From a virus, in IMG/VR virus record IMGVR_UViG_3300030118_007055, positions 1 through 64,000 of that record: a DNA stretch of 64,000 bases; one strand, given 5' to 3'. Under the pieces are notes generated by a model that saw only the letters and a program-made list of their open reading frames with translations, had not been told where the DNA came from and did not search any database. The position numbers were made by a program, and so were the translations under genes. The number at the start of each line of letters is the position of its first letter. Position 1 is the stretch's first letter. This document shows, piece by piece, positions 32 through 62,889 of this stretch.

Positions 32-60
32 TTGCTTTTAATTCTAATCTGTGCTATAAT
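32..60 (+). promoter_or_regulatory. sigma70-like leaderless promoter (early class)
   Basis: TTGCTT at 32-37, a 17-bp spacer, and TATAAT at 55-60. The ATG of the next gene is at 67, 6 nt after the -10 box, so the expected transcription start coincides with the A of the ATG. The same spacing recurs at six other promoters in the window. Confidence 0.75.
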
Positions 61-66
61 TACATC

Positions 67-306
67 ATGAGAAATTCCAATATCTATAAATTCACTGTCA
101 CCGAGTATATGCAAAATCCGCCGTCTTGCGGGGGCAACTGGGAGTGCGGGGAAACCACGTACGTGTACATGTCCCGCTCTGCGAAGCGGGCCACCTCCAT
201 GGAGGTCCGTCCATCCATCCGCGAGTATGGTGAGCAGGGTGTGCCTATCATGGGCCGCCAGACGCTCACCAAGGGCAACAAGGTCATCTTCGACAGGTGG
301 GATTGA
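67..306 (+). CDS. hypothetical protein, GC-rich
   Basis: A 79-aa protein I do not recognise. It has two early cysteines (SCGGNWEC) and a basic, charged remainder; no signal peptide or membrane segment is visible. It starts exactly where the leaderless promoter at 32-60 predicts. By eye the second half of the gene is clearly richer in G and C than the AT-rich genes that dominate the window, with codons such as CGC, GTC and GGC, which suggests recent acquisition. The first copy of the triple-hairpin repeat follows its stop. An antisense ORF over the same bases is treated as a shadow because the promoter faces right. Confidence 0.7.
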   Translation: MRNSNIYKFTVTEYMQNPPSCGGNWECGETTYVYMSRSAKRATSMEVRPSIREYGEQGVPIMGRQTLTKGNKVIFDRWD

Positions 307-323
307 CCCGCGTAAAAACCTTC

Positions 324-400
324 GTAAGTCGTTCACTATCAACGACTTACGCGGCGCGGGCAGCCCCGTCGGCGTAACTCGTTGATGCTCAACGAGTTAC
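324..400. repeat. triple-hairpin repeat, copy 1
   Basis: Two inverted repeats flank a short GC-rich stem. The left arm pairs GTAAGTCGTT (324-333) with AACGACTTAC (341-350); the right arm pairs GTAACTCGTTGA (374-385) with TCAACGAGTTAC (389-400). Copies at 1923, 3053 and 4963 share the layout. It sits between a gene end and the next promoter, so it may act as a terminator or insulator, or be a REPIN-like mobile repeat. Confidence 0.85.
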
Positions 401-469
401 ATAACATTATACGTATATCCCTGTCAAATCTTTTTTTAATATTTAAATTAAATATTTAATACTTTTTAT

Positions 470-498
470 TTGATATTTATCTATTTATCGTTTATAGT
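470..498 (+). promoter_or_regulatory. sigma70-like leaderless promoter (early class)
   Basis: TTGATA at 470-475, a 17-bp spacer, and TATAGT at 493-498, followed by 6 nt and the ATG at 505. Confidence 0.75.
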
Positions 499-504
499 TT
501 GATC

Positions 505-711
505 ATGAACAATAGAATTGATGAAATAATGGCGCATTTAAATAGTGCATCTATAGACGGCGGTTTCTGCCTCTTTGTTGAAAATGGTGAAATCGTTGCT
601 AAAGATCTTCTTCATAATCCTGATGAACTCAATGATCAACTTGAGTTTAATGTTAGGTATGTCGGCACTGATATCTCTGACATTGAAGCGAAACCCTTAA
701 CAAAGAAATAA
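505..711 (+). CDS. hypothetical small acidic protein
   Basis: A 68-aa protein starting MNNRIDEIMAHLNSASIDGG. The ATG at 505 is preferred over an in-frame TTG at 499 because the promoter -10 box ends at 498 and the ATG then falls at the predicted transcription start. No domain is recognised. It is followed after 4 nt by the next small gene, so the two form a two-gene transcription unit. Confidence 0.75.
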   Translation: MNNRIDEIMAHLNSASIDGGFCLFVENGEIVAKDLLHNPDELNDQLEFNVRYVGTDISDIEAKPLTKK

Positions 712-715
712 AATC

Positions 716-904
716 ATGGACCCATCAGCAACAGCATTAATGCATGACATAGGCGAAATACTCGATGACTTCAGAGCTGACATGATAGAATCATATGACC
801 CCGATCATATGAAGTTCAGCATTCAAGACATCGAAGAGAAAACCGATAATCTAATAAAAGAAATAAAAGGATTGTTTAGTTCTAGCTATTCTTTTAATAA
901 ATAA
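716..904 (+). CDS. hypothetical small acidic protein
   Basis: A 62-aa acidic, probably helical protein (MDPSATALMHDIGEILDDF onwards) that I do not recognise. It lies 4 nt downstream of the previous gene with no clear Shine-Dalgarno sequence, so it is probably translated by coupling from the same leaderless mRNA. Confidence 0.7.
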   Translation: MDPSATALMHDIGEILDDFRADMIESYDPDHMKFSIQDIEEKTDNLIKEIKGLFSSSYSFNK

Positions 905-920
905 AAAAGCAAAAAAATAC

Positions 921-949
921 TTGCACCCCTTTTAAATCTGTGGTAGATT
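921..949 (+). promoter_or_regulatory. sigma70-like leaderless promoter (early class)
   Basis: TTGCAC at 921-926, a 17-bp spacer, and TAGATT at 944-949, followed by 6 nt and the ATG at 956. The geometry is identical to the promoters of the genes at 67 and 505. Confidence 0.75.
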
Positions 950-955
950 AGAGAC

Positions 956-1213
956 ATGAAATTACAATCCTTAAATCCAACTCAACTAGCGTCATACTTA
1001 GCAGGTAAAACTGTCAGGTATACAAACACACAAAACAAATCATCCGTTACTGATAACGGAGTGAGAACTTTTAAAATCGAATCCATTGATAGGGTCGGTA
1101 GACACTGGGAAACAAGTGAGCAATTCATAACTGCAAAGGTCTCAGATGTTGATGATTCTGGAGTAGAAAAATATAGAAATTTATATATTGACAGCATCAA
1201 TGTCATAGTATAA
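956..1213 (+). CDS. hypothetical protein
   Basis: An 85-aa protein whose sequence pattern (TVRYTNTQNKSS, FKIESIDRVG, FITAKVSDVDD, RNLYIDSINVIV) looks like a small all-beta fold, perhaps an OB- or SH3-like barrel; this is inference. It starts at the ATG placed by the promoter at 921-949. A strong stem-loop at 1222-1276 follows the stop. Confidence 0.7.
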   Translation: MKLQSLNPTQLASYLAGKTVRYTNTQNKSSVTDNGVRTFKIESIDRVGRHWETSEQFITAKVSDVDDSGVEKYRNLYIDSINVIV

Positions 1214-1221
1214 AACTGGAG

Positions 1222-1276
1222 TTAAGGACGGATGGCGAGATGTTCATGGGGGTGAGTCTCGTCATCCACTCCTTAA
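1222..1276 (+). ncRNA. strong stem-loop between genes
   Basis: A 7-bp outer stem (TTAAGGA 1222-1228 with TCCTTAA 1270-1276) and a 10-bp inner stem (GATGGCGAGA 1231-1240 with TCTCGTCATC 1257-1266, one G-U) enclose a 16-nt G-rich loop. No T-tract follows, so it is not a standard terminator. It may be a small RNA, a processing site, or a 5'-UTR element of the gene at 1305. Confidence 0.55.
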
Positions 1277-1304
1277 AAACTAAACTTAACAACAATAATA
1301 TAAT

Positions 1305-1523
1305 ATGGCAAAACCAACTGAATCAGTTCGCATTGAAGTAAAAACTAAAGATCAAGCAATCTTGCTTAACTATGCTCTCGGCGTAGTTCATCAAGCTCTG
1401 GCAGAGAGAATGTCAGACACAGCAGATGATAAACTTGATCTATTCATTGATAATGTAAAGTGGACACGCAAACACGCTAATACATTAAACGAAAAATTTG
1501 CGTTAAACGCAGAACAATCCTAG
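1305..1523 (+). CDS. hypothetical protein
   Basis: A 72-aa protein (MAKPTESVRIEVKTKDQAIL onwards), mostly helical, charged and soluble, of no recognised family. The ATG at 1305 follows an AT-rich leader containing AACAACAATAATATAAT. It is the last gene before the structured RNA region at about 1526-1903, so that RNA could be the 3' end of its transcript. Confidence 0.7.
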   Translation: MAKPTESVRIEVKTKDQAILLNYALGVVHQALAERMSDTADDKLDLFIDNVKWTRKHANTLNEKFALNAEQS

Positions 1524-1525
1524 GA

Positions 1526-1903
1526 GGGTATAGTCACCGAGTTTAGACTCAGCCCCCTACAGCACAAAAGTTGTAGGTAAGTGACGATGAAACAAATCTT
1601 ACGCCAACCCAAAGTCGCTTCGGCGATGAGACTCACCGAGTGGTGGTGAGGGGCTAAGTAAAAACCTTGGTATGGTTATAAAGGGATTTACCGCCAACTC
1701 TACGGAGAACAATCCCAAACCTAAATACTGGAGGCAAGCCCCAACGGAGCGCTCCCGCCAGTAGGGAAGCCGTCGATAGTGACAGAGCGGTCTTTAAATA
1801 GACCTTAATAACTCGAAAACTATCGGCGGTTTCTTAAAATAAAGCCGTCGGCAGGAATAAGAGGGCTGTTATGCTCTTCAGAAACTGTCGGCGGTTTTTT
1901 TTT
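1526..1903 (+). ncRNA. large multi-hairpin structured RNA candidate
   Basis: About 380 nt with no credible ORF and dense complementarity. AGCCCC (1551-1556) pairs with GGGGCT (1650-1655). Inside this closing stem are four hairpins: 1557-1561/1572-1576, 1577-1581/1598-1602, 1615-1618/1623-1626 with a C(UUCG)G loop, and 1633-1637/1645-1649. The first two abut the closing stem and each other with no unpaired base, and the fourth abuts it on the other side, as in coaxially stacked RNAs. Further hairpins follow (AACC/GGTT, GGGATT/AATCCC, TACTGG/CCAGTA), then two related stems (1770-1829, 1845-1894) and a T9 tract. I cannot assign it to a known family; large phage RNAs such as GOLLD or ROOL are the obvious comparisons. 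Confidence 0.6.
1845..1903 (+). terminator. Rho-independent terminator
   Basis: CCGTCGGCAG (1845-1854) pairs with CTGTCGGCGG (1885-1894); an inner AAGAG/CTCTT stem is present and nine T follow (1895-1903). It ends the structured RNA candidate. A closely related hairpin lies just upstream at 1770-1829. Confidence 0.85.
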
Positions 1904-1922
1904 GTGCTGTTAACTGCTTATA

Positions 1923-1998
1923 TAAGTCGTTCAGTATGAACGACTTACGCGGGCGCGGCCCCCCGCGCGGCGTAACTCGTTGATACTCAACGAGTTAC
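1923..1998. repeat. triple-hairpin repeat, copy 2
   Basis: The left arm pairs TAAGTCGTTCA (1923-1933) with TGAACGACTTA (1937-1947); the right arm pairs GTAACTCGTTGA (1972-1983) with TCAACGAGTTAC (1987-1998); the middle is a GC-rich stem. It lies directly after the terminator. The flank GTGCTGTTAACT also precedes copy 3 in nearly the same form, so the repeated unit is longer than the hairpins. Confidence 0.85.
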
Positions 1999-2097
1999 GA
2001 ATGATTCTACTCATACGCCGTGATAACTTTGTCAAGTAATAATATAATAAATATTTGTCAAGCAAATATTTAACCTAAACTTTTTTGTTTTTTTCTC

Positions 2098-2126
2098 TTT
2101 ACTTTTTTGTTTTCTGCGGTTATAGT
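2098..2126 (+). promoter_or_regulatory. sigma70-like promoter (early class)
   Basis: TTTACT at 2098-2103, a 17-bp spacer, and TATAGT at 2121-2126. The ATG at 2136 is 9 nt downstream, slightly further than in the other members, so the leader is at most a few bases. Confidence 0.6.
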
Positions 2127-2135
2127 TACCTCATT

Positions 2136-2960
2136 ATGTCACTTATATTCGCAAAAAATAAACTGGAGCCGATCACACGCCCAAGCGCAGGATCGGTTTG
2201 GACTTCACATAACGTTGAGACTCTCTCTGTAGATGATCAAATTCGGGCGGTTAGAACACCCCCCAAAACGGATAGCCATACGCCTATCCCTCACAGCTTG
2301 CTTGTCGATAAAACTCGCAACGCTTTAGATCGTGCAGGTTTCACCATCACTGAAGAAGAACACGCTCTCGCTCGTGGCGGTCAGCGTTACTTTGGTGGAT
2401 TCGCTTTGACTGGTGATGATATCAAAGGTAAGGATCGTAGACTGGTTTTCGGCTTGCGTAATTCTCACGACAAGTCCACAGCATCTTCCGCTTGCATGGG
2501 TAATTCTATGTTGGTTTGCGACAATATGTGCTTTTCGTCTGACGTTAAGCTCGCTCGCCGTCACACTGTTAACATTCTTCGGGATCTTGATGGGATGCTT
2601 GCCAAAGCTATCGGTCGCATCGTTTCGTCATGGCATGACATGGGCGAGAGAATTATGGCTTACAAAGATTCTGAGATCTCTCCTGAGAGGGCTTCTAATC
2701 TTGTTGTGGATCTTGCCGAGATCAAAGCTCTTCCAGAGCGTGACGTTTACAAGACTGTTAAAGAGTTTCGTAATCAGCCCCACGAGCAGTTCAGAGGCAA
2801 CACCCTCTGGAATTTGTACAACTCCGTAACTGAGAATCTCAAGGGCGGTGATTTGTCCAAGCTCCCAGAGCGCACTATGAAAATGCAGAGTCTTTTTGAT
2901 TCTGTTGCAGGTCATACGCCTGAGATCATAGAAGCTGAGGAGGTCGTTTTACCCGCATAA
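2136..2960 (+). CDS. DUF932-like phage/plasmid protein
   Basis: A 274-aa protein. The pattern HSLLVDKTRNALDRAGFTI, a central FGLRNSHDKS, GNSMLVCDNMCFSSD, and the helical C-terminal half match the DUF932 family found in phages and plasmids, whose biochemical role is unknown. The ATG at 2136 is preferred to a TTG at 2085 because the latter lies upstream of the promoter. By eye it has a more balanced base composition than most neighbours. It is monocistronic: promoter on one side, a strong terminator at 2984-3015 on the other, and triple-hairpin repeats on both flanks, so it looks like a self-contained cassette. Confidence 0.8.
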   Translation: MSLIFAKNKLEPITRPSAGSVWTSHNVETLSVDDQIRAVRTPPKTDSHTPIPHSLLVDKTRNALDRAGFTITEEEHALARGGQRYFGGFALTGDDIKGKDRRLVFGLRNSHDKSTASSACMGNSMLVCDNMCFSSDVKLARRHTVNILRDLDGMLAKAIGRIVSSWHDMGERIMAYKDSEISPERASNLVVDLAEIKALPERDVYKTVKEFRNQPHEQFRGNTLWNLYNSVTENLKGGDLSKLPERTMKMQSLFDSVAGHTPEIIEAEEVVLPA

Positions 2961-2983
2961 CTAGCCCCGCCTTACCAACCACG

Positions 2984-3015
2984 CCCGCATCCCGAAAGGG
3001 GTGCGGGTTTTTTTT
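2984..3015 (+). terminator. Rho-independent terminator
   Basis: CCCGCATCCC (2984-2993), GAAA loop, GGGGTGCGGG (2998-3007), then eight T (3008-3015). It is a textbook terminator for the DUF932-like gene. Confidence 0.9.
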
Positions 3016-3052
3016 GTGCTTTTAACTTGACAAGGGTTTAAGTAATAACTTA

Positions 3053-3130
3053 CGTAAGTCGTTCAGTATGAACGACTTACGCGGGCGCGGCCCCCCGCAG
3101 GGCGTAACTCGTTGATACTCAACGAGTTAT
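3053..3130. repeat. triple-hairpin repeat, copy 3
   Basis: CGTAAGTCGTTCA (3053-3065) pairs with TGAACGACTTACG (3069-3081); GTAACTCGTTGA (3104-3115) pairs with TCAACGAGTTAT (3119-3130); the GC-rich middle is nearly identical to copy 2. Confidence 0.85.
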
Positions 3131-3194
3131 GAAGCAAAACTATATGTCAAGCTATAATTAAAATTAATTTTAATTATATTAAATGATTTTTTAT

Positions 3195-3223
3195 TTGACC
3201 TAGAATATATCATAGTTTATATT
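3195..3223 (+). promoter_or_regulatory. sigma70-like leaderless promoter (early class)
   Basis: TTGACC at 3195-3200, a 17-bp spacer, and TATATT at 3218-3223, followed by 6 nt and the ATG at 3230. Confidence 0.8.
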
Positions 3224-3229
3224 CAACCT

Positions 3230-3442
3230 ATGATAGAAGACTATCCAATAAATATAGATAAAGATAAAAGAGACTTCCAAGTCTTTATGTTACATCAAAA
3301 TGGCGACCAAACAATTAACGGATGGTTTACTTATGATGGTGCGGTTCAGTATATCAAGAAATATAAAAGTGAAAACTTGGATACTGACTTAGAAGTGACT
3401 AAGTTTGAAATATTGTTAGACAACACAAATGTAGTAATATGA
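3230..3442 (+). CDS. hypothetical protein
   Basis: A 70-aa acidic protein; the central segment FQVFMLHQNGDQTINGWFTY suggests a small alpha/beta fold. Not recognised. It is the first gene of a rightward cassette, starts at the predicted transcription start of its promoter, and overlaps the next gene by 4 nt. Confidence 0.75.
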   Translation: MIEDYPINIDKDKRDFQVFMLHQNGDQTINGWFTYDGAVQYIKKYKSENLDTDLEVTKFEILLDNTNVVI

Positions 3443-4143
3443 GATACTTAACACTTAGCAACTCAAAAATTTTAAAGGGATTCCAAAAAGGTTTCATAAC
3501 TTATGGTCTTCACTTCGCACCGTCTACTTTGTCGGGGCGTAATGTTTGCCCGAACGCATCCCCTGGATGTGCAGAGGCTTGTTTAAATACAGCAGGTCGG
3601 GGCATGATGAACATGGTGCAAGAGGCTAGGATAAACAAAACAAATAAATTCTTTAATAATAAGTTTGAGTTTGTGCTTCAGTTGGTAAAGGATATCCAAG
3701 CAGGTATAAGGTTTGCGACACGTAAAGAAATGAATGTTTGCTTTCGTTTAAACTTAACAAGTGATATCCGTTGGGAAAAATATGGCATCATGCAAGAGTT
3801 TCCAAAACAACAGTTCTACGACTACACAAAGAGTAAACAGAGAATGAGAGCTTTCCTCGGTCGTGGTCTAGGATATAACTCTGAAATGCCTCACAATTAT
3901 CATCTTACTTTTAGCAGAGACGAAACAACAGACATTGAGTTTATAAAAGAAGTAATTAAAAAAGGTGGTAATGTTGCAGTTGTGTTTGATGAGATTCCAA
4001 ATACTTGGGAGGGTATGGATGTTATCAGTGGCGACGATCATGACTTGCGCTTTACTGATCCTCATGGTAAAATAGTTGGACTACAAGCAAAAGGCAAAGC
4101 AAAGCAAGATAACTCTGGCTTTGTTGTAAAAGTAAAAAATTAA
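3439..4143 (+). CDS. Gp88-like phage protein
   Basis: A 234-aa protein resembling the phage gene product 88 family: an N-terminal LSNSKILKG...YGLHFAPS segment and a cysteine cluster with C37, C44 and C48 (NVCPNASPGCAEACLNTAG). The family has a radical-SAM-like look, but its activity is, to my knowledge, not established. The C-terminal half contains YHLTFSRDE and VAVVFDE strands. It overlaps the upstream gene by ATGA and is followed by four small overlapping genes in the same cassette. Confidence 0.65.
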   Translation: MRYLTLSNSKILKGFQKGFITYGLHFAPSTLSGRNVCPNASPGCAEACLNTAGRGMMNMVQEARINKTNKFFNNKFEFVLQLVKDIQAGIRFATRKEMNVCFRLNLTSDIRWEKYGIMQEFPKQQFYDYTKSKQRMRAFLGRGLGYNSEMPHNYHLTFSRDETTDIEFIKEVIKKGGNVAVVFDEIPNTWEGMDVISGDDHDLRFTDPHGKIVGLQAKGKAKQDNSGFVVKVKN

Positions 4144-4145
4144 AT

Positions 4146-4319
4146 ATGAAAGATGATATAATATATAAATTGAAAATAATAGGAGGCCCAGAACATAACA
4201 ATGTAAAAGGTTTTTTTACAGCTGACCAGTTGAGAAAAAAAATCTATCTACTAAGAAAACAATTTGGCAATGACTGGTCTTATGATATAGTACCATGTAA
4301 ACAAACACATTTAAAATGA
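4146..4319 (+). CDS. hypothetical small protein
   Basis: A 57-aa protein (MKDDIIYKLKIIGGPEHNNV onwards). The segment VKGFFTADQLRKKIYLL resembles the strand-helix pattern of the 70-aa protein at 3230, so they may be distant paralogs; this is inference. It begins 2 nt after the Gp88-like gene, and its TGA overlaps the ATG of the next gene. Confidence 0.65.
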   Translation: MKDDIIYKLKIIGGPEHNNVKGFFTADQLRKKIYLLRKQFGNDWSYDIVPCKQTHLK

Positions 4320-4588
4320 AAGAAGTTAACTACACAAATCAAATCCGTTTTTTACTAACTAAGACTAATGTTCTTATAGACTTGCGATACGATAATTCCA
4401 AGGGGATTACTCACGCAGTCAAGACCCATCAGTTAAAGATGTATAAACCTATAACTAATATAGATGGCTCAGAGGTTCTTGAGGAAATGCCAAGTTACTA
4501 CTCAGAGAGTGACGAGATGAATCAGAAAGCAATTGAGTTGATTTATATGGATAGGCGTGGTAAGTTATCCGAAGGGATGACTCTATAA
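4316..4588 (+). CDS. hypothetical protein
   Basis: A 90-aa protein of unknown function, lysine- and tyrosine-rich, with no membrane segment. It is coupled to the upstream gene by an ATGA overlap and followed by a 21-codon membrane peptide. Confidence 0.7.
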   Translation: MKEVNYTNQIRFLLTKTNVLIDLRYDNSKGITHAVKTHQLKMYKPITNIDGSEVLEEMPSYYSESDEMNQKAIELIYMDRRGKLSEGMTL

Positions 4589-4593
4589 AAAAA

Positions 4594-4659
4594 ATGCCAC
4601 ACGAAATAAGTTTAATCTTTGTTTTAGCAATCGCACTTTTAATTTTAGCACTAAGATGA
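4594..4659 (+). CDS. 21-aa membrane micropeptide
   Basis: MPHEISLIFVLAIALLILAL plus a final Arg: five polar residues, then one hydrophobic helix long enough to span a membrane. It fits tightly between two genes, 5 nt after the previous stop, and its TGA overlaps the ATG of the following gene, which supports translation. Role unknown; small phage membrane peptides are often host-takeover or superinfection factors. Confidence 0.55.
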   Translation: MPHEISLIFVLAIALLILALR

Positions 4660-4835
4660 CAAGCATACCACACGAACCAGATATAAAAGACCAAGAAAAA
4701 AAAGAGGTTTATACTAATCTCGCTAAGGTCGTAGGCGATGCTTGCGAAGCATGGCTTCGCAAGAAAGGCATCGGCACATATGGATTCAAAGAACAAATGA
4801 ATAAAGAATATAAACAGGCAAAAGCAAAAAAATAA
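4656..4835 (+). CDS. hypothetical small basic protein
   Basis: A 59-aa, lysine-rich soluble protein (MTSIPHEPDIKDQEKKEVYT onwards). Unrecognised. Its first residues SIPHE echo the MPHE start of the upstream micropeptide. Its ATG overlaps the micropeptide stop. It is the last gene of the cassette that began at 3230. Confidence 0.65.
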   Translation: MTSIPHEPDIKDQEKKEVYTNLAKVVGDACEAWLRKKGIGTYGFKEQMNKEYKQAKAKK

Positions 4836-4860
4836 AAGTTTTGTTATACGCAACAAATAC

Positions 4861-4961
4861 GCACCAGTTAGGAGTAGAGCGCAGAGAGATCCTGCGACGG
4901 GTTGTTTTCGGGGAGTCATTACCCCATTCTTTCTAACCTTTTGTGATCACCTAGCTGGTGC
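4861..4961 (+). ncRNA. structured RNA closed by a 12-bp stem
   Basis: GCACCAGTTAGG (4861-4872) pairs with CCTAGCTGGTGC (4950-4961) over 12 bp with one G-U. Inside are CGCAG (4880-4884) with CTGCG (4892-4896), and GGGG (4910-4913) with CCCC (4922-4925), the latter nested in GGTT/AACC. No ORF covers it. It lies just after a gene cassette and just before triple-hairpin copy 4. Function unknown. Confidence 0.55.
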
Positions 4962-4962
4962 T

Positions 4963-5039
4963 GTAACTCGTTCAGCATGAACGAGTTACGCGGGGCGGCG
5001 ACCCCGTACTGCGTAACTCCTTGATAATCAACTACTTAC
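4963..5039. repeat. triple-hairpin repeat, copy 4 (partly decayed)
   Basis: GTAACTCGTTCA (4963-4974) pairs with TGAACGAGTTAC (4978-4989). Relative to copies 1-3 a G-C pair in the left stem is swapped to C-G on both sides, a compensatory change. The right arm (5013-5039) is degenerate and pairs imperfectly. Confidence 0.8.
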
Positions 5040-5063
5040 GATATATAATATATATATAAAGTA

Positions 5064-5087
5064 AAAGGCCCACATTCGCGGGCCTTT
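5064..5087. terminator. bidirectional terminator hairpin
   Basis: AAAGGCCC (5064-5071) pairs with GGGCCTTT (5080-5087) around an 8-nt loop, with A-rich and T-rich flanks. It separates the rightward cassette from the leftward small genes at 5203-6514. Confidence 0.8.
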
Positions 5088-5099
5088 ATTTAATACTGG

Positions 5100-5201
5100 T
5101 TATTTGATCTGGGCTTATTAGTTATTAAGTTATTTGATATTAGATATTAGATCTGGGTATTATTTGTATGTGTTTATTTAGCCCCACTTATTTGATCTGG
5201 G
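5100..5201. repeat. short direct repeats with TTATTTGATCTGGG
   Basis: TTATTTGATCTGGG at 5100-5113 and 5188-5201, with a partial copy between them ending AGATCTGGG near 5157. Related GATCTGG pieces recur around 12220-12268. No gene is seen in this stretch. Meaning unknown; possibly a protein-binding site. Confidence 0.5.
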
Positions 5202-5202
5202 A

Positions 5203-5361
5203 TCATTTGAAACTAAATATAGCTATTAGTAGTCCTATTATTATGGTTACCAGAATCGATATTGGAATATCCCACGGAGTGGCATAAAGTTTTTTATATT
5301 GTTTCGCCTCTTGTTTATTACGCTTTCTCTGGTTCACCCTTGGATTCATTTCTTCTTCCAT
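5203..5361 (-). CDS. small membrane protein
   Basis: A 52-aa protein: a basic N-terminus (MEEEMNPRVNQRKRNKQEAK) followed by one C-terminal membrane helix (ISILVTIIIGLLIAIFSF). The internal ATG at 5361 is preferred over the longer frame start at 5412 because the extra residues look non-coding. The basic-then-hydrophobic layout suggests a tail-anchored protein with a cytoplasmic N-terminus. Role unknown. Confidence 0.55.
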   Translation of the reverse strand: MEEEMNPRVNQRKRNKQEAKQYKKLYATPWDIPISILVTIIIGLLIAIFSFK

Positions 5362-5526
5362 GTTTATTATTACGCTTATTTGTAATCGACTTGAAGAATA
5401 TTGTTGTTTCAATTATGTCACATAACTGTACAATACATAAATTACAAAAATAAAAAATAATAGATATAAAACCGACTCTATCCGTGTCATTTGTTTTGTT
5501 TTGTTGGGGGTTATATATATACTACA

Positions 5527-5652
5527 CTAACCATCGCTCCAGTAGTCATCTATATCATCGTCCTCATGTGATGTTTTCTCCCCCCCTGTAATAGAGAGTA
5601 TAAGTAGAGAGAAGAACATAATAATAAAGCCCCAAGGGTAAAAATTGTCCAT
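5527..5652 (-). CDS. 41-aa membrane peptide
   Basis: MDNFYPWGFIIMFFSLLILS and a short tail ending in a strongly acidic stretch (EDDDIDDYWSDG). One membrane helix with an acidic C-terminus. Neighbouring leftward genes encode similar micropeptides, which supports reality, but there is no obvious ribosome site. Confidence 0.45.
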   Translation of the reverse strand: MDNFYPWGFIIMFFSLLILSITGGEKTSHEDDDIDDYWSDG

Positions 5653-5878
5653 AGTTATTTAAAATGATTAAAAATTATATTTAATTAATTAAAAAGGGTA
5701 GACAGTATATCCAAGCTCTCCATATCATATCTTTCCAAACAAACCATTTTATATTCTTATATTGTAGTATTATATATATATCTATTGTATAAGGGTCTGA
5801 TGTATTGTATATGTATATGGGGGTATATGGTAATGTCTATGGTTATATAATTACAAACGAAGTAAAAATAATTTATAA
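5653..5878. other. AT-rich intergenic stretch, nothing identified
   Basis: About 226 bases of very AT-rich sequence with many TATA runs. I see no ORF, hairpin or clear promoter that I can defend; it presumably holds the promoter of the 41-aa gene. Confidence 0.4.
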
Positions 5879-5992
5879 TTACTTTGTATGTTGAATGGTG
5901 GCATACCAGATATTGTAGTAGAACATAGATAAAAACACAATAAGTAGTATATCGCTTCCTAATATTATAGAACTAACTAGAAGAAATATCAT
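5879..5992 (-). CDS. 37-aa membrane peptide
   Basis: Starts MIFLLVSSIILGSDILLIVF: two short hydrophobic runs, the second ending near YYNIWYATIQHTK. The ATG overlaps the TGA of the upstream gene, the standard coupling arrangement in this genome, which supports translation. Function unknown. Confidence 0.5.
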   Translation of the reverse strand: MIFLLVSSIILGSDILLIVFLSMFYYNIWYATIQHTK

Positions 5993-6189
5993 TGAAAGGT
6001 TGTTACTCCATCTACATATAGATCTGCTTTATCTATATCCTGACCGTGCAAAGTACTCCAATAATGTGATGGCTTTTCTTGTGCTACTTCAATAGCTAAT
6101 CTCTGAGCTTCTTCTTCGTTGTTAGCTTTGACTTCTATAGGAAGAGTTACTTCAGTTACTCTATTAACATCGATGATATAACTATTCAT
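5989..6189 (-). CDS. hypothetical protein
   Basis: A 66-aa protein with strand-helix-strand character: VTLPIEVKANNEEEAQRLAI resembles small phage proteins with a DpnD/PcfM-like or ferredoxin-like half-fold, a weak resemblance. It overlaps the upstream gene by 8 nt in a leftward operon. Confidence 0.65.
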   Translation of the reverse strand: MNSYIIDVNRVTEVTLPIEVKANNEEEAQRLAIEVAQEKPSHYWSTLHGQDIDKADLYVDGVTTFQ

Positions 6190-6514
6190 TTGTAATTACA
6201 ATATTAACTTGCCATGGGTGAGTTTTCCAATCTTGACCTCTAGCCTTCAATGTAACTGTATCTCCGACTTCTGCAAACTTTTTTAAACCAGTGATAGATA
6301 TTCTTTTATCTCCTCTGCCTTTAGCCTTATAGAAAGACACTTTACATTTTGTATTATCTTTATATCTACCAACTAATTCAAATCTATCTCCTGCATCTGC
6401 ATCTGAATATTTAAAATCAAAACTCTCTGCAAAATCACAGACTGTTTTATTGGCATCAATTATACTCTTGTTGAGCATAGTGTTTGTTAATTTTATAATA
6501 GCTTTTTTACTCAT
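6182..6514 (-). CDS. hypothetical protein
   Basis: A 110-aa protein, first gene of the leftward operon that runs to 5879. The middle (DRFELVGRYKDNTKCKVSFY, KRISITGLKKF, GDTVTLKARGQDW) suggests a beta-barrel domain, possibly like the DNA-binding N-domain of EcoRII, but this is only a sequence impression. It begins at the transcription start predicted by the promoter at 6521-6548. Confidence 0.7.
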   Translation of the reverse strand: MSKKAIIKLTNTMLNKSIIDANKTVCDFAESFDFKYSDADAGDRFELVGRYKDNTKCKVSFYKAKGRGDKRISITGLKKFAEVGDTVTLKARGQDWKTHPWQVNIVITNE

Positions 6515-6520
6515 ACTGCA

Positions 6521-6548
6521 ATAATAATCTATATTAAAGGTAAGTCAA
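6521..6548 (-). promoter_or_regulatory. sigma70-like leaderless promoter (early class)
   Basis: On the minus strand: TTGACT (6548-6543), a 16-bp spacer, TATTAT (6526-6521), then 6 nt and the ATG at 6514. It is divergent from the promoter at 6596-6623. Confidence 0.75.
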
Positions 6549-6595
6549 GAATAAATTTGCCCCGAATTTAAATTAATTTTATTTAAAAAAAAATG

Positions 6596-6623
6596 TTGAC
6601 CTAAATTGGATATCATCTATAGT
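6596..6623 (+). promoter_or_regulatory. sigma70-like leaderless promoter (early class)
   Basis: TTGACC (6596-6601), a 16-bp spacer, TATAGT (6618-6623), then 6 nt and the ATG at 6630. It drives the rightward early operon from 6630 to about 11359. Confidence 0.8.
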
Positions 6624-6629
6624 TGTCCC

Positions 6630-6878
6630 ATGAGTAATAAGAAAAGTAATCGTGGCAGACCGAGAGGAGCCACATCATTTGTAAGGGTTTCATTGAGAGA
6701 CTTGACACAACAGATAGGAGAGAATGCCTCAGTGGTAGTCTCTAAAAAATGGCTAGAAAGTATTACTGGAGGAATCGATGAGCTTCCACCTGCTAATATA
6801 GAAACTTCACAGATCAAAGAAGTTGAGGAGCCAACACCAGAAATTGAAAGAATCCAGTTCACAATCCACGATGATTAA
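6630..6878 (+). CDS. small basic/acidic bipolar protein, possible regulator
   Basis: An 82-aa protein with a basic N-terminus (MSNKKSNRGRPRGATSF, an AT-hook-like GRPRG) followed by VRVSLRDLTQQIGENASVVV and an acidic tail. The GRPRG patch could bind the minor groove of AT-rich DNA, which would suit a transcription factor; this is inference. It is the first gene of the operon and overlaps the RuvB-like gene by 8 nt. The ATG at 6630 is fixed by the promoter; an in-frame start at 6606 is upstream of the -10 box. Confidence 0.65.
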   Translation: MSNKKSNRGRPRGATSFVRVSLRDLTQQIGENASVVVSKKWLESITGGIDELPPANIETSQIKEVEEPTPEIERIQFTIHDD

Positions 6879-7773
6879 TGATTTGATAGGTCAGGAGCAA
6901 CTTAAAAAAAGGTTGCAGTTCTACACCGATTCTAAAAAAGCCACTGGTGTGATACCATTCTTAATGTTCAATGGAGCAAAGGGATTAGGTAAAACAGAAT
7001 TTGCAAAGCAGTTTGCAAAAACTTTAGGTAAGAAAATGATAGAAATAAATTGTTCTACTATCAGAAATGGTGAGCAATTTTTCGAGCAGATATTTATTCC
7101 TGCTATCATGGACAAAGATATAACAATTCTATTTGATGAGGCTCATGCTTTACCGAAGGATTTAGTTATGGCTTTTCTGACTATCTTTAATGTCGAAGGT
7201 GCTAAAACAAAAAGATTTGATTTTGGCGATAACAGTTTTGTTTTTGAGTTCGAGAGACAGACATTTATGTTTGCCACTACAGAATTAGACAAATTGTTTC
7301 CTCCGTTTAGAGATCGTCTCACAGTCCTTGATTTTGTGCCATACTCTCCTAGTGAGTTATCTAAGATTATGTCTAAGAAGATTAGTTGGGTTAACTTTAA
7401 AGATAATGTCATCGAAGAGGTGGCAACTACATTAAGAGGCAACGCAAGATCAGCAATCAAAAGAGCTTTAGAGATAAGAGCTTATTGTGAGGTAAACAAT
7501 CAAAGTGATTTTGGTCTTCAGGATTGGAACAGGCTTTGTGATTTAATTGATATTCGTCCGTATGGATTGAGTAATACAGAGATCCAGGTGATGCAATTAT
7601 TGAGAGATCGAGGTGCTTGTACTTTACAAATGATATCTGCTGTAACAGGAATGTCTCGCACTGCGATACAACGTGATGCTGAAGTTTATCTTTTAAAAGA
7701 GGGCTTCATGAAAATAGATGGCAAGCGTTGGATCACAGATAAAGGAGTAAAAGCATTAGATAAAATCAATTAA
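6871..7773 (+). CDS. RuvB-like AAA+ ATPase
   Basis: A 300-aa protein with the order of Holliday-junction helicase RuvB: an N-terminal MINDLIGQEQLKKRLQFY, Walker A (NGAKGLGKT, K41), Walker B (ITILFDEAHA, D89-E90), a sensor region (FMFATTELDKLFPPFRDRL), an Arg-rich helical lid (LRGNARSAIKRALEI), and a C-terminal winged helix ending RWITDKGVKALDKI. RuvB normally works with RuvA on branched DNA, but no ruvA or ruvC is seen nearby. It may migrate recombination intermediates with the phage RecA at 57.7-58.8 kb, or act as a clamp-loader-like ATPase. I chose ATG 6871, where the IGQ motif sits as in RuvB. Confidence 0.8.
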   Translation: MINDLIGQEQLKKRLQFYTDSKKATGVIPFLMFNGAKGLGKTEFAKQFAKTLGKKMIEINCSTIRNGEQFFEQIFIPAIMDKDITILFDEAHALPKDLVMAFLTIFNVEGAKTKRFDFGDNSFVFEFERQTFMFATTELDKLFPPFRDRLTVLDFVPYSPSELSKIMSKKISWVNFKDNVIEEVATTLRGNARSAIKRALEIRAYCEVNNQSDFGLQDWNRLCDLIDIRPYGLSNTEIQVMQLLRDRGACTLQMISAVTGMSRTAIQRDAEVYLLKEGFMKIDGKRWITDKGVKALDKIN

Positions 7774-8077: not shown

Positions 8078-8626
8078 ATGCCAAACCACGTAACAAATAA
8101 ACTCACAGTTAGAAAAGGAACACAAAAAATTCTTCCTGCTCTTTACAGTGCAACTATCGAATACAACAGCATAGATGAAAAACTCTATGATATCTTACGG
8201 AACTTTTCTTTTAAGAAGATTATAAAAGAACCGCAAGTAACATTTGATTTGGGTAAATCTGTAAATTATACCGAATGGAGATGGGATAATTGGGGAACCA
8301 GAACAGATGCTTATGTTGTTGATGATCCTGATGAGTGGCAGAATAAAGATGAGACTATTAACCTAATAAATAGTTTTGGTCAGTTCGAGACTGCATGGTC
8401 ACCGCCATTAAAGGTAATTCGTAAGCTACAAAAGATGTTTCCAGATTATTCTTTTGCATTAGACTACATAGACGAACAATTTATGTTCTGCGGTACGATG
8501 GATGTAAAAGGTGAGGACAATCACACAGAAGAAGAAAAAGATTTAAGGTATTATGGAGCTTATCTCTTGCAATATTCACACAAAGATTTAGATGAATTCT
8601 TTGAAAGTTGTGAAGAAAATGTTTGA
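8078..8626 (+). CDS. DUF1281-like (Api92) protein
   Basis: A 182-aa protein starting MPNHVTNKLTV, the typical opening of DUF1281/Api92-like proteins of phages and plasmids, which are predicted to have a ferredoxin-like fold. Family hallmarks visible are WRWDNWGTRTDAYVVD and FETAWSPPLKVIRKLQKMFP. The molecular function of the family is unknown to me. It follows the HExxH gene after 2 nt. Confidence 0.8.
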   Translation: MPNHVTNKLTVRKGTQKILPALYSATIEYNSIDEKLYDILRNFSFKKIIKEPQVTFDLGKSVNYTEWRWDNWGTRTDAYVVDDPDEWQNKDETINLINSFGQFETAWSPPLKVIRKLQKMFPDYSFALDYIDEQFMFCGTMDVKGEDNHTEEEKDLRYYGAYLLQYSHKDLDEFFESCEENV

Positions 8627-8658
8627 CATTGAATTAAAATTAATTTAAATTATTTAAA

Positions 8659-11820: not shown

Positions 11821-11843
11821 TATTTACACTAGTGTAATAATAT
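11821..11843. promoter_or_regulatory. divergent late-class promoter palindrome
   Basis: TTACACTAGTGTAA (11824-11837) is a perfect 14-bp palindrome that gives AGTGTAA facing both ways: rightwards AGTGTAATAATAT to the GTG at 11846, leftwards AGTGTAAATA to the gene starting at 11782. The motif matches the late-class element upstream of tail, lysis and Clp genes. Confidence 0.65.
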
Positions 11844-11845
11844 AT

Positions 11846-12178
11846 GTGAATTTAATTGTTGTTTCTCATTTAACCACAAAAGAAGGTTTATATTTTAGAT
11901 ACCTCTCAAACGTTGCGAAACTACATTACAACATGGATGTTGTTGTAGAAGCAAAAAAAGAACAAATAGATTACTATTATAAGCTCCTTAAAAAACATGG
12001 TTTATATGATTTTGTTTCAGAGATTGTGCCACCAGAATATGAGGTAGATGGCATAAGATTAGACACAGAATTAAATTATCCTTTAACAATACAAACAAAT
12101 TCAATTCATGTTTTTAATGTAACTAATTTAATCGCACAAATTAAAACTTTACATAAGATACGAAAAGATTTATTTTAG
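11846..12178 (+). CDS. hypothetical protein
   Basis: A 110-aa alpha/beta protein that I cannot assign. KLHYNMDVVVEAKKEQIDYYY, KKHGLYDFVSEIV and a following DGIRLD give a weak impression of a truncated HAD- or Rossmann-like fold; not claimed. The start is GTG at 11846, 8 nt downstream of the AGTGTAA motif; an overlapping ATG is immediately followed by a stop. Confidence 0.6.
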   Translation: MNLIVVSHLTTKEGLYFRYLSNVAKLHYNMDVVVEAKKEQIDYYYKLLKKHGLYDFVSEIVPPEYEVDGIRLDTELNYPLTIQTNSIHVFNVTNLIAQIKTLHKIRKDLF

Positions 12179-15381: not shown

Positions 15382-15413
15382 ATATTTGAGGTTAAATTAT
15401 TTAATATTAGCTG

Positions 15414-15641
15414 TCAAACTTTTTCTTCAGAATTTTCTTCTTTATCGCTCTCATCTGGTATTAATGTAGGCTCAGCAAAAAATGGCTCAACAATTTCACC
15501 TGGAGTTTCAGCAGCAGCTTGAACTTTTTTAGCTAATACAAGTGCAGCCTCTGCGACAGTTAAACCTTGAGCTTTAACAGCTACATCTAAAAGTTGGACT
15601 AAAACTTGTAATTCATTGTCCGTGTATTCAATAGTTTTCAT
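15414..15641 (-). CDS. hypothetical small phage protein
   Basis: A 75-aa protein: helix ELQVLVQLLDVAVKAQGLTV plus an Ala-rich helix, then an acidic disordered tail (PDESDKEENSEEKV). Similar small proteins near structural genes are common in marine phages; function unknown. Confidence 0.6.
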   Translation of the reverse strand: MKTIEYTDNELQVLVQLLDVAVKAQGLTVAEAALVLAKKVQAAAETPGEIVEPFFAEPTLIPDESDKEENSEEKV

Positions 15642-20872: not shown

Positions 20873-20887
20873 ACTAATATTTACACT
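20873..20887 (-). promoter_or_regulatory. late-class promoter motif
   Basis: AGTGTAAATATTAGT on the minus strand (20887-20873), directly abutting the ATG at 20872. It lies at the end of the pyrophosphatase gene. Confidence 0.65.
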
Positions 20888-23310: not shown

Positions 23311-23328
23311 ATAACTAATAGTTACACG
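23311..23328 (-). promoter_or_regulatory. late-class promoter motif
   Basis: CGTGTAACTATTAGTTAT on the minus strand (23328-23311), directly before the ATG at 23310. Confidence 0.55.
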
Positions 23329-24098: not shown

Positions 24099-24110
24099 AG
24101 TGTAAGTATT
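24099..24110 (+). promoter_or_regulatory. late-class promoter motif
   Basis: AGTGTAAGTATT, 3 nt before the ATG at 24114. It drives the tail-tip operon. Confidence 0.65.
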
Positions 24111-46012: not shown

Positions 46013-46032
46013 TTTGTATACAATATTACACA
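46013..46032 (-). promoter_or_regulatory. late-class promoter motif
   Basis: TGTGTAATATTGTATACAAA on the minus strand (46032-46013), ending directly before the ATG at 46012. It fits AGTGTAA-N-TATT except for the first base. Confidence 0.5.
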
Positions 46033-49533: not shown

Positions 49534-49546
49534 AAATATTTACACT
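49534..49546 (-). promoter_or_regulatory. late-class promoter motif
   Basis: AGTGTAAATATTT on the minus strand (49546-49534), directly before the ATG at 49533 and overlapping the end of the DNA polymerase gene. Confidence 0.65.
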
Positions 49547-53462: not shown

Positions 53463-53490
53463 AATATATGACCACATCATCAACTGTCAA
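53463..53490 (-). promoter_or_regulatory. sigma70-like leaderless promoter of the polymerase operon
   Basis: Minus strand: TTGACA (53490-53485), a 16-bp spacer, TATATT (53468-53463), then 6 nt and the ATG at 53456. The -35 box covers the stop codon of the upstream nuclease gene. Confidence 0.8.
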
Positions 53491-61730: not shown

Positions 61731-61737
61731 GATAAGA

Positions 61738-62889
61738 TTATATACTTTTTTTAATTATTTCTAAACTTTGTTCAACTTCAATTTCTTTTACTGCTAAATT
61801 TGGCCTCATTCTAATTGAATTTTTTCCAGTAGGGTTACATAGCATGCCATTTAAAAATAATTTTTTATAAAATTTATCTCTTAAAACTTTAGACTCAAAA
61901 TCAAAGGCTAATAATAAACCTTTAGATCTTACATTATGTATATCTTTAATTTGCGATAACTGTGTAGTTAGAATCTTTCCCATTTTAGTAGCGTTTTCTT
62001 TTAGTTTGTTTTTTTTAATTGCTTTGATTATATAGTGGCATCTTATCATATCTATAAGATCGCCATCAAATGTTACGGACAATTTCTTTGGCATTTCAAA
62101 AACTTTAGAATGAGATTCTTTTACCATTATGCCAGAAACTTGTGATTTTTTGCCAAAAACTACAATATCAGGAAAAACTTCTAAATGTTCAAAATACCAA
62201 GTTTTACCTGTGCTACAAAAGCCTGTTTGAACTTCATCAAAAATCAATGGCACATTTTTCTCTTTGCATTTTTTGTAAAGAGATTGTAATTGATTTTTAT
62301 CTAGATAATTATCTCCAAAAGTGGATTGTATAGGTTCTACTAGAACTCCCTGAACTTTATCGTTATCATTTATAGCATTTATAGCTTCATCTATGGATGA
62401 GGCATGAATTTGTTTATCATGATAATCTCGAAAAATATCACCAAGCCTCTCATCCACTGCTGCGAAACGCGTTGTTAAAAAATTACCAACTGAATTAATA
62501 CCATGAAAGCTATTTGCTATTGAAATAATTTTGGCATCTGGATCTGGATTTTTATGCCACATGGCAGTTTTTACAGCCGCCTCATTTGCTAAACCTCCAG
62601 TACAAGTAAAGTGATAATTTTTGTAAACATCTAAACATGTAAACTCTTTAAAACATTTATAAAACTTATCAAACTCATCAGATAAAATTTCGCAATTAAC
62701 TAATTTAAGTTTGCAAGCTCTACTAATATCTTTTTTAAACTGTCTATTTTTAAATATTCTATGATTGTAACCAAGAGGAAGCGATGAATACATCCCCATA
62801 AAATCTAAATATTTTTTTTTAGTAGTTTTATCATAAATATAACTACCTTTGCTTTTGTCAAAATTTATTTTGATGTTAAATAAACTCAT
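61738..62889 (-). CDS. class III PLP aminotransferase (lysine 6-aminotransferase-like)
   Basis: A 383-aa fold-type I aminotransferase: FTCTGGLANEAAVKTAMWHK, the PLP-pocket VPLIFDEVQTGFCSTGKTWY, and FPDIVVFGKKSQVSGIMV with the Schiff-base lysine. The GKKSQVSGIM context resembles L-lysine epsilon-aminotransferases more than glutamate-1-semialdehyde mutases. In this cluster it may aminate a sugar or make a modified amino acid; the substrate is not deducible. Confidence 0.85.
   Translation of the reverse strand: MSLFNIKINFDKSKGSYIYDKTTKKKYLDFMGMYSSLPLGYNHRIFKNRQFKKDISRACKLKLVNCEILSDEFDKFYKCFKEFTCLDVYKNYHFTCTGGLANEAAVKTAMWHKNPDPDAKIISIANSFHGINSVGNFLTTRFAAVDERLGDIFRDYHDKQIHASSIDEAINAINDNDKVQGVLVEPIQSTFGDNYLDKNQLQSLYKKCKEKNVPLIFDEVQTGFCSTGKTWYFEHLEVFPDIVVFGKKSQVSGIMVKESHSKVFEMPKKLSVTFDGDLIDMIRCHYIIKAIKKNKLKENATKMGKILTTQLSQIKDIHNVRSKGLLLAFDFESKVLRDKFYKKLFLNGMLCNPTGKNSIRMRPNLAVKEIEVEQSLEIIKKSI

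Follow-up and report, generated by a model that had tools for sequence, protein, structure and literature searches.

How does a phage start translation when its promoters leave almost no room between the -10 box and the start codon? The question is raised by the window, bases 1-64,000 of the 84,209-base virus record IMGVR_UViG_3300030118_007055 (IMG/VR), the remainder of which was also analysed. Near the beginning of the window, seven genes each follow a sigma70-type promoter that ends within a few nucleotides (nt) of the ATG; we call these genes early from their promoter type and position, and their timing of expression is accordingly a presumption. The phage has a tail-tip and fibre module like that of phage lambda (J- and L-type proteins), and the record further encodes a DNA polymerase III alpha-type polymerase, a DnaB helicase, a primase, a UvsX-like recombinase, a Clp-like ATPase, ribonucleotide reductase and a sigma factor. 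From the sample numbers of related contigs, we take the phage to be probably marine. Our answer, which on the sequence evidence we regard as very likely, is that the early mRNAs are leaderless or carry a leader of 0-3 nt, and are transcribed from promoters of the sigma70 type.

The upstream regions of all seven genes (named here by the first base of the ATG, with a minus sign for the minus strand) were extracted. Each contains a promoter with TTGACA- and TATAAT-like boxes inside the 15-19 bp separation of the sigma70 type, the spacers being 16 or 17 bp as the initial annotation had described. Between the end of the -10 hexamer and the ATG lie 6 nt in six cases and 9 nt in gene 2136, again as annotated. 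Four of the six have a 17-bp spacer: the promoter of gene 67 (32-60, plus strand) combines TTGCTT (32-37), TATAAT (55-60) and the 6 nt TACATC, and recurs with this spacing in related contigs; that of 505 (470-498, plus) combines TTGATA (470-475), TATAGT (493-498) and TTGATC; that of 956 (921-949, plus), TTGCAC (921-926), TAGATT (944-949) and AGAGAC; and that of 3230 (3195-3223, plus), TTGACC (3195-3200), TATATT (3218-3223) and CAACCT. The spacer is 16 bp for 6514- (6521-6548, minus; TTGACT at 6548-6543, TATTAT at 6526-6521, then TGCAGT) and for 6630 (6596-6623, plus; TTGACC at 6596-6601, TATAGT at 6618-6623, then TGTCCC). In the promoter of 2136 (2098-2126, plus), TTTACT (2098-2103) and TATAGT (2121-2126) stand 17 bp apart and the 9 nt TACCTCATT precede the ATG, so that a 3-nt leader would be expected. 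The -10 box of 956 (TAGATT) and the -35 box of 2136 (TTTACT) are weak, and the 6-nt value for 6514- hinges on picking the 16-bp register (TATTAT).

This spacing exceeds what chance would produce, as had been claimed. A sigma70 weight-matrix scan of the 30 operon-leading genes of the whole 84.2-kb record found, in 10 of them, a site with a score over 8 that ends 5-7 nt ahead of the start codon; 200 dinucleotide shuffles averaged 0.14 such genes and never exceeded 2. The distance profile peaks at 6 nt among operon-leading genes, with no such peak among internal genes. Enrichment of the spacing outside the region of the seven promoters, which the initial annotation had named as a check, was also found: upstream of 8659 (8623-8651, plus; TTGACA, 17 bp, TAAATT, 7 nt to the ATG), of 15381- (15389-15417, minus; TTGACA, 17 bp, TAACCT, 7 nt) and of 53456- (53463-53490, minus; TTGACA, 16 bp, TATATT, 6 nt, as in 4 related contigs), at record position 79484, beyond the window (5 nt to the start codon), and, more weakly, at 61730- (TATAAT at 61737-61742, minus, 6 nt). 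The distance had been described as fixed at 6 nt; this is its mode, but a range of 5-9 nt describes it better.

An annotation-free control scan, with a threshold of 9 and counting hits at 5-9 nt, was applied to other phages. It returned 6 hits in 50 kb of the Thermus phage phiYS40 and none in 40 kb of T4; the Pelagibacter phage HTVC008M gave 1 in 40 kb and HMO-2011 gave 2 in 50 kb. The present 84-kb record gave 7 hits; its first 9 kb alone, with their own base composition as background, gave 7 as well, so the feature is concentrated there.

Relatives conserve the arrangement. In five contigs whose DUF932 genes share 79-94% identity with that of the window (2136), the orthologs of 67, 956 and 2136 keep the promoter-ATG geometry, the promoter of the 2136 ortholog lying 5 nt from the ATG in four relatives. 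Orthologs of 505 have unrelated promoters across the relatives, still at 6-7 nt, and one relative has no promoter there. The open reading frame (ORF) downstream of 505, gene 716 (716-904, plus, 62 aa), has no promoter of its own in the window; in some relatives it has one, 5 nt from the ATG. In three more distant contigs, with DUF932 about 63% identical, predicted promoter-ATG pairs are mostly 6-9 nt apart, and a promoter also stands 6 nt before the next gene (227-228 aa). Of 118 promoter-ATG pairs in the related loci, 57 are 5-9 nt apart, 28 of them by exactly 6 nt. Since such contigs do not count as independent observations, a collapse to 84 protein families was also made; 6 nt is the modal distance in 14 families, with about 0.9 families per position beyond 10 nt.

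The base preceding the start codon points to where transcription would begin. At the 6-nt sites a pyrimidine precedes the ATG in 32 of 40 cases, compared with 45% at other starts, and it does so in 12 of the 14 6-nt families (C in 10). The pattern matches the usual Y(-1)R(+1) initiator signature, the A of the ATG being the predicted +1. We propose that these seven promoters and a minimum of four others in the record are of the host sigma70 type, with the -10 element directly adjoining the start codon; RNA polymerase would start 6-8 nt past the -10 box, so that the first transcribed base would be the A of the ATG or lie no more than about 3 nt upstream of it. The first gene of an operon would then be translated via the 5'-terminal AUG of a leaderless (or 0-3-nt-leader) mRNA, and the genes downstream would be reached through re-initiation or coupling, without a Shine-Dalgarno (SD) sequence. 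Both the transcription starts and initiation at the 5' AUG are predictions from this arrangement.

Ultra-short leaders of 1-5 nt could instead be the rule, with SD-independent ribosome binding that is A/U-rich or driven by the start codon. Distances of 7-9 nt do occur, an ATT leader would be expected for 2136, and the GTGTAA motif described below lies 8-13 nt from starts. At the few 8-9-nt sites the pyrimidine-purine step remains about 5-7 nt past the -10 box and precedes the ATG; leaders of 1-3 nt are predicted at these sites. However, the mode falls at exactly 6 nt, where a pyrimidine occupies -1 and the A of the ATG takes the preferred start position, and we consider ultra-short leaders unlikely as a general rule.

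Another possibility is that the start codons are misassigned and that translation begins further downstream, on mRNAs with normal leaders; some genes do have in-frame Met codons further on, and the distances were taken to the ATG closest to the promoter. Yet the first 15 codons of 505, 956 and 2136 are kept as protein among relatives, with changes mainly at third positions; their ATGs are therefore real starts, and misassignment is very improbable. An mRNA-borne translation signal that only resembles a -10 box is an equally improbable reading of the abutting motifs: the genome-wide lack of SD sequences leaves room for another start signal and GTGTAA has no evident -35 partner, but the -10 boxes are paired with TTGAC-type -35 boxes at 16-17 bp and the sites cluster at operon-leading, not internal, genes. 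Promoters of the Bacteroidota type, whose motif is TTG/TAnnTTTG, were judged unlikely, the sites having a TTGAC-type -35 box 16-17 bp from the -10 box.

SD complementarity of at least 4 nt was found in 0 of the 30 leading genes, in 13% of internal genes and in 19% of random internal ATGs. The genes thus lack SD sequences as annotated, but this is not distinctive, internal genes lacking them too; since the lack is genome-wide, the seven genes are not singled out by it. Coupling of downstream genes by ATGA overlaps occurs but is partial: among 71 internal genes, ATGA was found in 17 and TAATG in 13, together under half. The further suggestion that 70S initiation is favoured by phage-induced stress found no support, and as the lack of SD is phage-wide, a special stress-related 70S pathway is unnecessary as an explanation. 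These results suggest that SD-independent translation is normal for this phage, and perhaps for its host.

Several points weigh against leaderless early mRNAs: (i) distances of 5-9 nt imply that leaders of 1-3 nt, not zero, are to be expected for some genes; (ii) there are leading genes without such a promoter, for example 1305, 4656 and 11933; (iii) the genome-wide lack of SD gives leaderlessness no specific support, being compatible with it and not proof; and (iv) promoters were modelled on the E. coli consensus. Searches for the host gave no assignment: one structural gene compared with INPHARED had no DNA match, and the protein matches of the phage were distant with mixed hosts; the palindrome TAACTCGTTGANNNTCAACGAGTTA matched just 8 genome stretches (Bacteroidota, Fibrobacter, Verrucomicrobiales) and is not diagnostic. 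Taking these points into consideration, geometry, statistics, conservation, the initiator base and the positive control phiYS40 support the annotated leaderless mRNAs well, but a strictly zero leader is not to be expected for all genes and 0-3 nt are possible.

A second motif, GTGTAA, stands near other start codons. Upstream of the Clp-like ATPase gene it occupies 49540-49545 (minus), 6 nt before the first ATG (49533, minus), and most of 37 related contigs keep it at 6 nt, with varying bases in between; the gene starts ATGATG in nearly all of them, so that either ATG might serve. It also occurs at 24100-24105 (plus), 8 nt before the ATG of the tail-tip protein (24114), at 20881-20886 (minus), 8 nt before ATG 20872, at 23322-23327 (minus), 11 nt before ATG 23310, and at 46026-46031 (minus), 13 nt before ATG 46012, a distance of 7-13 nt in 57 homologous copies. 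GTGTAA occurs 326 times in 69 non-redundant loci (homologous copies counted); an ORF start follows within 37 nt in 157 cases, and in about 110 of these the distance is 6-13 nt. Control hexamers are far rarer before ORF starts. The families with the motif comprise three large gene families and several small ones.

As in T4-like late systems, the phage encodes a sigma factor (record 77399-78007; PHROG sigma family, E-value 3.2e-5), with homologs in 55 viral loci; Sigma70_r2 was found in 4 of 24 homologs. Its AlphaFold2 model has a mean predicted local distance difference test (pLDDT) score of 80.7 and a predicted template modelling (pTM) score of 0.48, and the best Foldseek matches in the PDB are sigma factors. 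GTGTAA is probably a phage-specific promoter near the start codon, read with the phage-encoded sigma factor, a link that we infer; later genes would thus probably have very short leaders too. T4 late promoters are read with the phage sigma factor gp55, and the likeness extends to a single -10-like motif (TGTAAATA in some copies, compared with TATAAATA in T4); the present motif differs in its core, GTGTAA, in adjoining start codons and in the presumed status of its pairing with the sigma factor. The T4 octamer TATAAATA itself was rejected as a late motif, just 1 of its 14 sites being followed by a gene start within 60 nt. Beyond the window, at about record position 77192 (minus), GTGTAA stands 11 nt before the ATG of a gene beginning MIFEE that a simple gene caller missed and that is possibly the small ribonucleotide reductase subunit (a 323-aa family in relatives). 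At 11829-11846 the palindrome ACACTAGTGT places GTGTAA back to back on both strands between divergent genes.

Among the genes behind the seven promoters, those predicted to be leaderless are the small ORFs 67 (67-306, plus, 79 aa, no Pfam family) and 505 (505-711, plus, 68 aa), and further 956 (956-1213, plus, 85 aa), 3230 (3230-3442, plus, 70 aa, with an ATGA overlap with the GP88 gene at 3439-4143), 6514- (6182-6514, minus, 110 aa) and, divergent from it, 6630 (6630-6878, plus, 82 aa), which heads an operon with a clamp-loader-like AAA gene (6871-7773). Gene 2136 (2136-2960, plus, 274 aa) encodes the DUF932 protein (Pfam PF06067, E-value 7.8e-13). Between operons lie four copies (319-403, 1917-2001, 3049-3133 and 4958-5042) of an 85-nt element that contains two near-palindromic hairpins (TAAGTCGTTCA.../TAACTCGTTGA...); it is also found in relatives, with compensatory changes in the hairpin arms, and the copies are possibly terminators or processing sites. 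A long intergenic stretch at about 1515-1915 has conserved blocks, shared with relatives, and GTCGGCGGTTTTTTT ends that resemble terminators, and may be a non-coding RNA; an Rfam scan of the window, this stretch included, returned no family.

The phage lambda cI mRNA is leaderless and starts at its AUG. The predicted early mRNAs resemble it as phage messages beginning at AUG; in lambda, however, this concerns a single gene, and here many operons. In the Thermus phage phiYS40, middle and late mRNAs have been documented as leaderless (PMC3594737); promoters abut start codons in both phages and one scan detects both. In phiYS40, however, most middle and late genes are leaderless and the host belongs to Deinococcus-Thermus, a phylum where leaderless genes are common, whereas the clearest cases here are -35/-10 promoters of the sigma70 type in a putative early region of a phage with a lambda-like tail module and a probably marine origin. 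Among cellular genes, the TA-led leaderless kind accounts for about 20% in Actinobacteria and about 40% in Deinococcus-Thermus (PMC3160421), and a -10 element adjoining ORFs is common in the latter (PMC12340547). The present genes share with these a -10-like element that lies about 10 bp ahead of the start codon and the lack of SD (PMC3160421; PMC12340547), but belong to a phage, have full -35/-10 promoters and lie in a genome where even internal genes lack SD sequences.

Leaderless expression is already known but uncommon, and in the present phage it looks like the default; what is new is that -35/-10 promoters abut start codons throughout an uncultured phage lineage without SD sequences. More tentatively, and here we lean slightly to the doubtful side, genes read with host sigma70 and those read with the phage sigma factor may both be expressed from leaderless or near-leaderless mRNAs, as the default of the whole programme in the SD-free genome of this widespread lineage. 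Leaderless initiation in phages has so far been documented for few genes and for phiYS40. The leaderless reading is a specific prediction that can be checked with 5'-end or metatranscriptome reads. If true, promoters and start codons could be annotated jointly in viral metagenomes; and if it is the rule for sigma70-driven, and perhaps phage-sigma-driven, genes, this lineage would offer a natural system for testing SD-independent translation.

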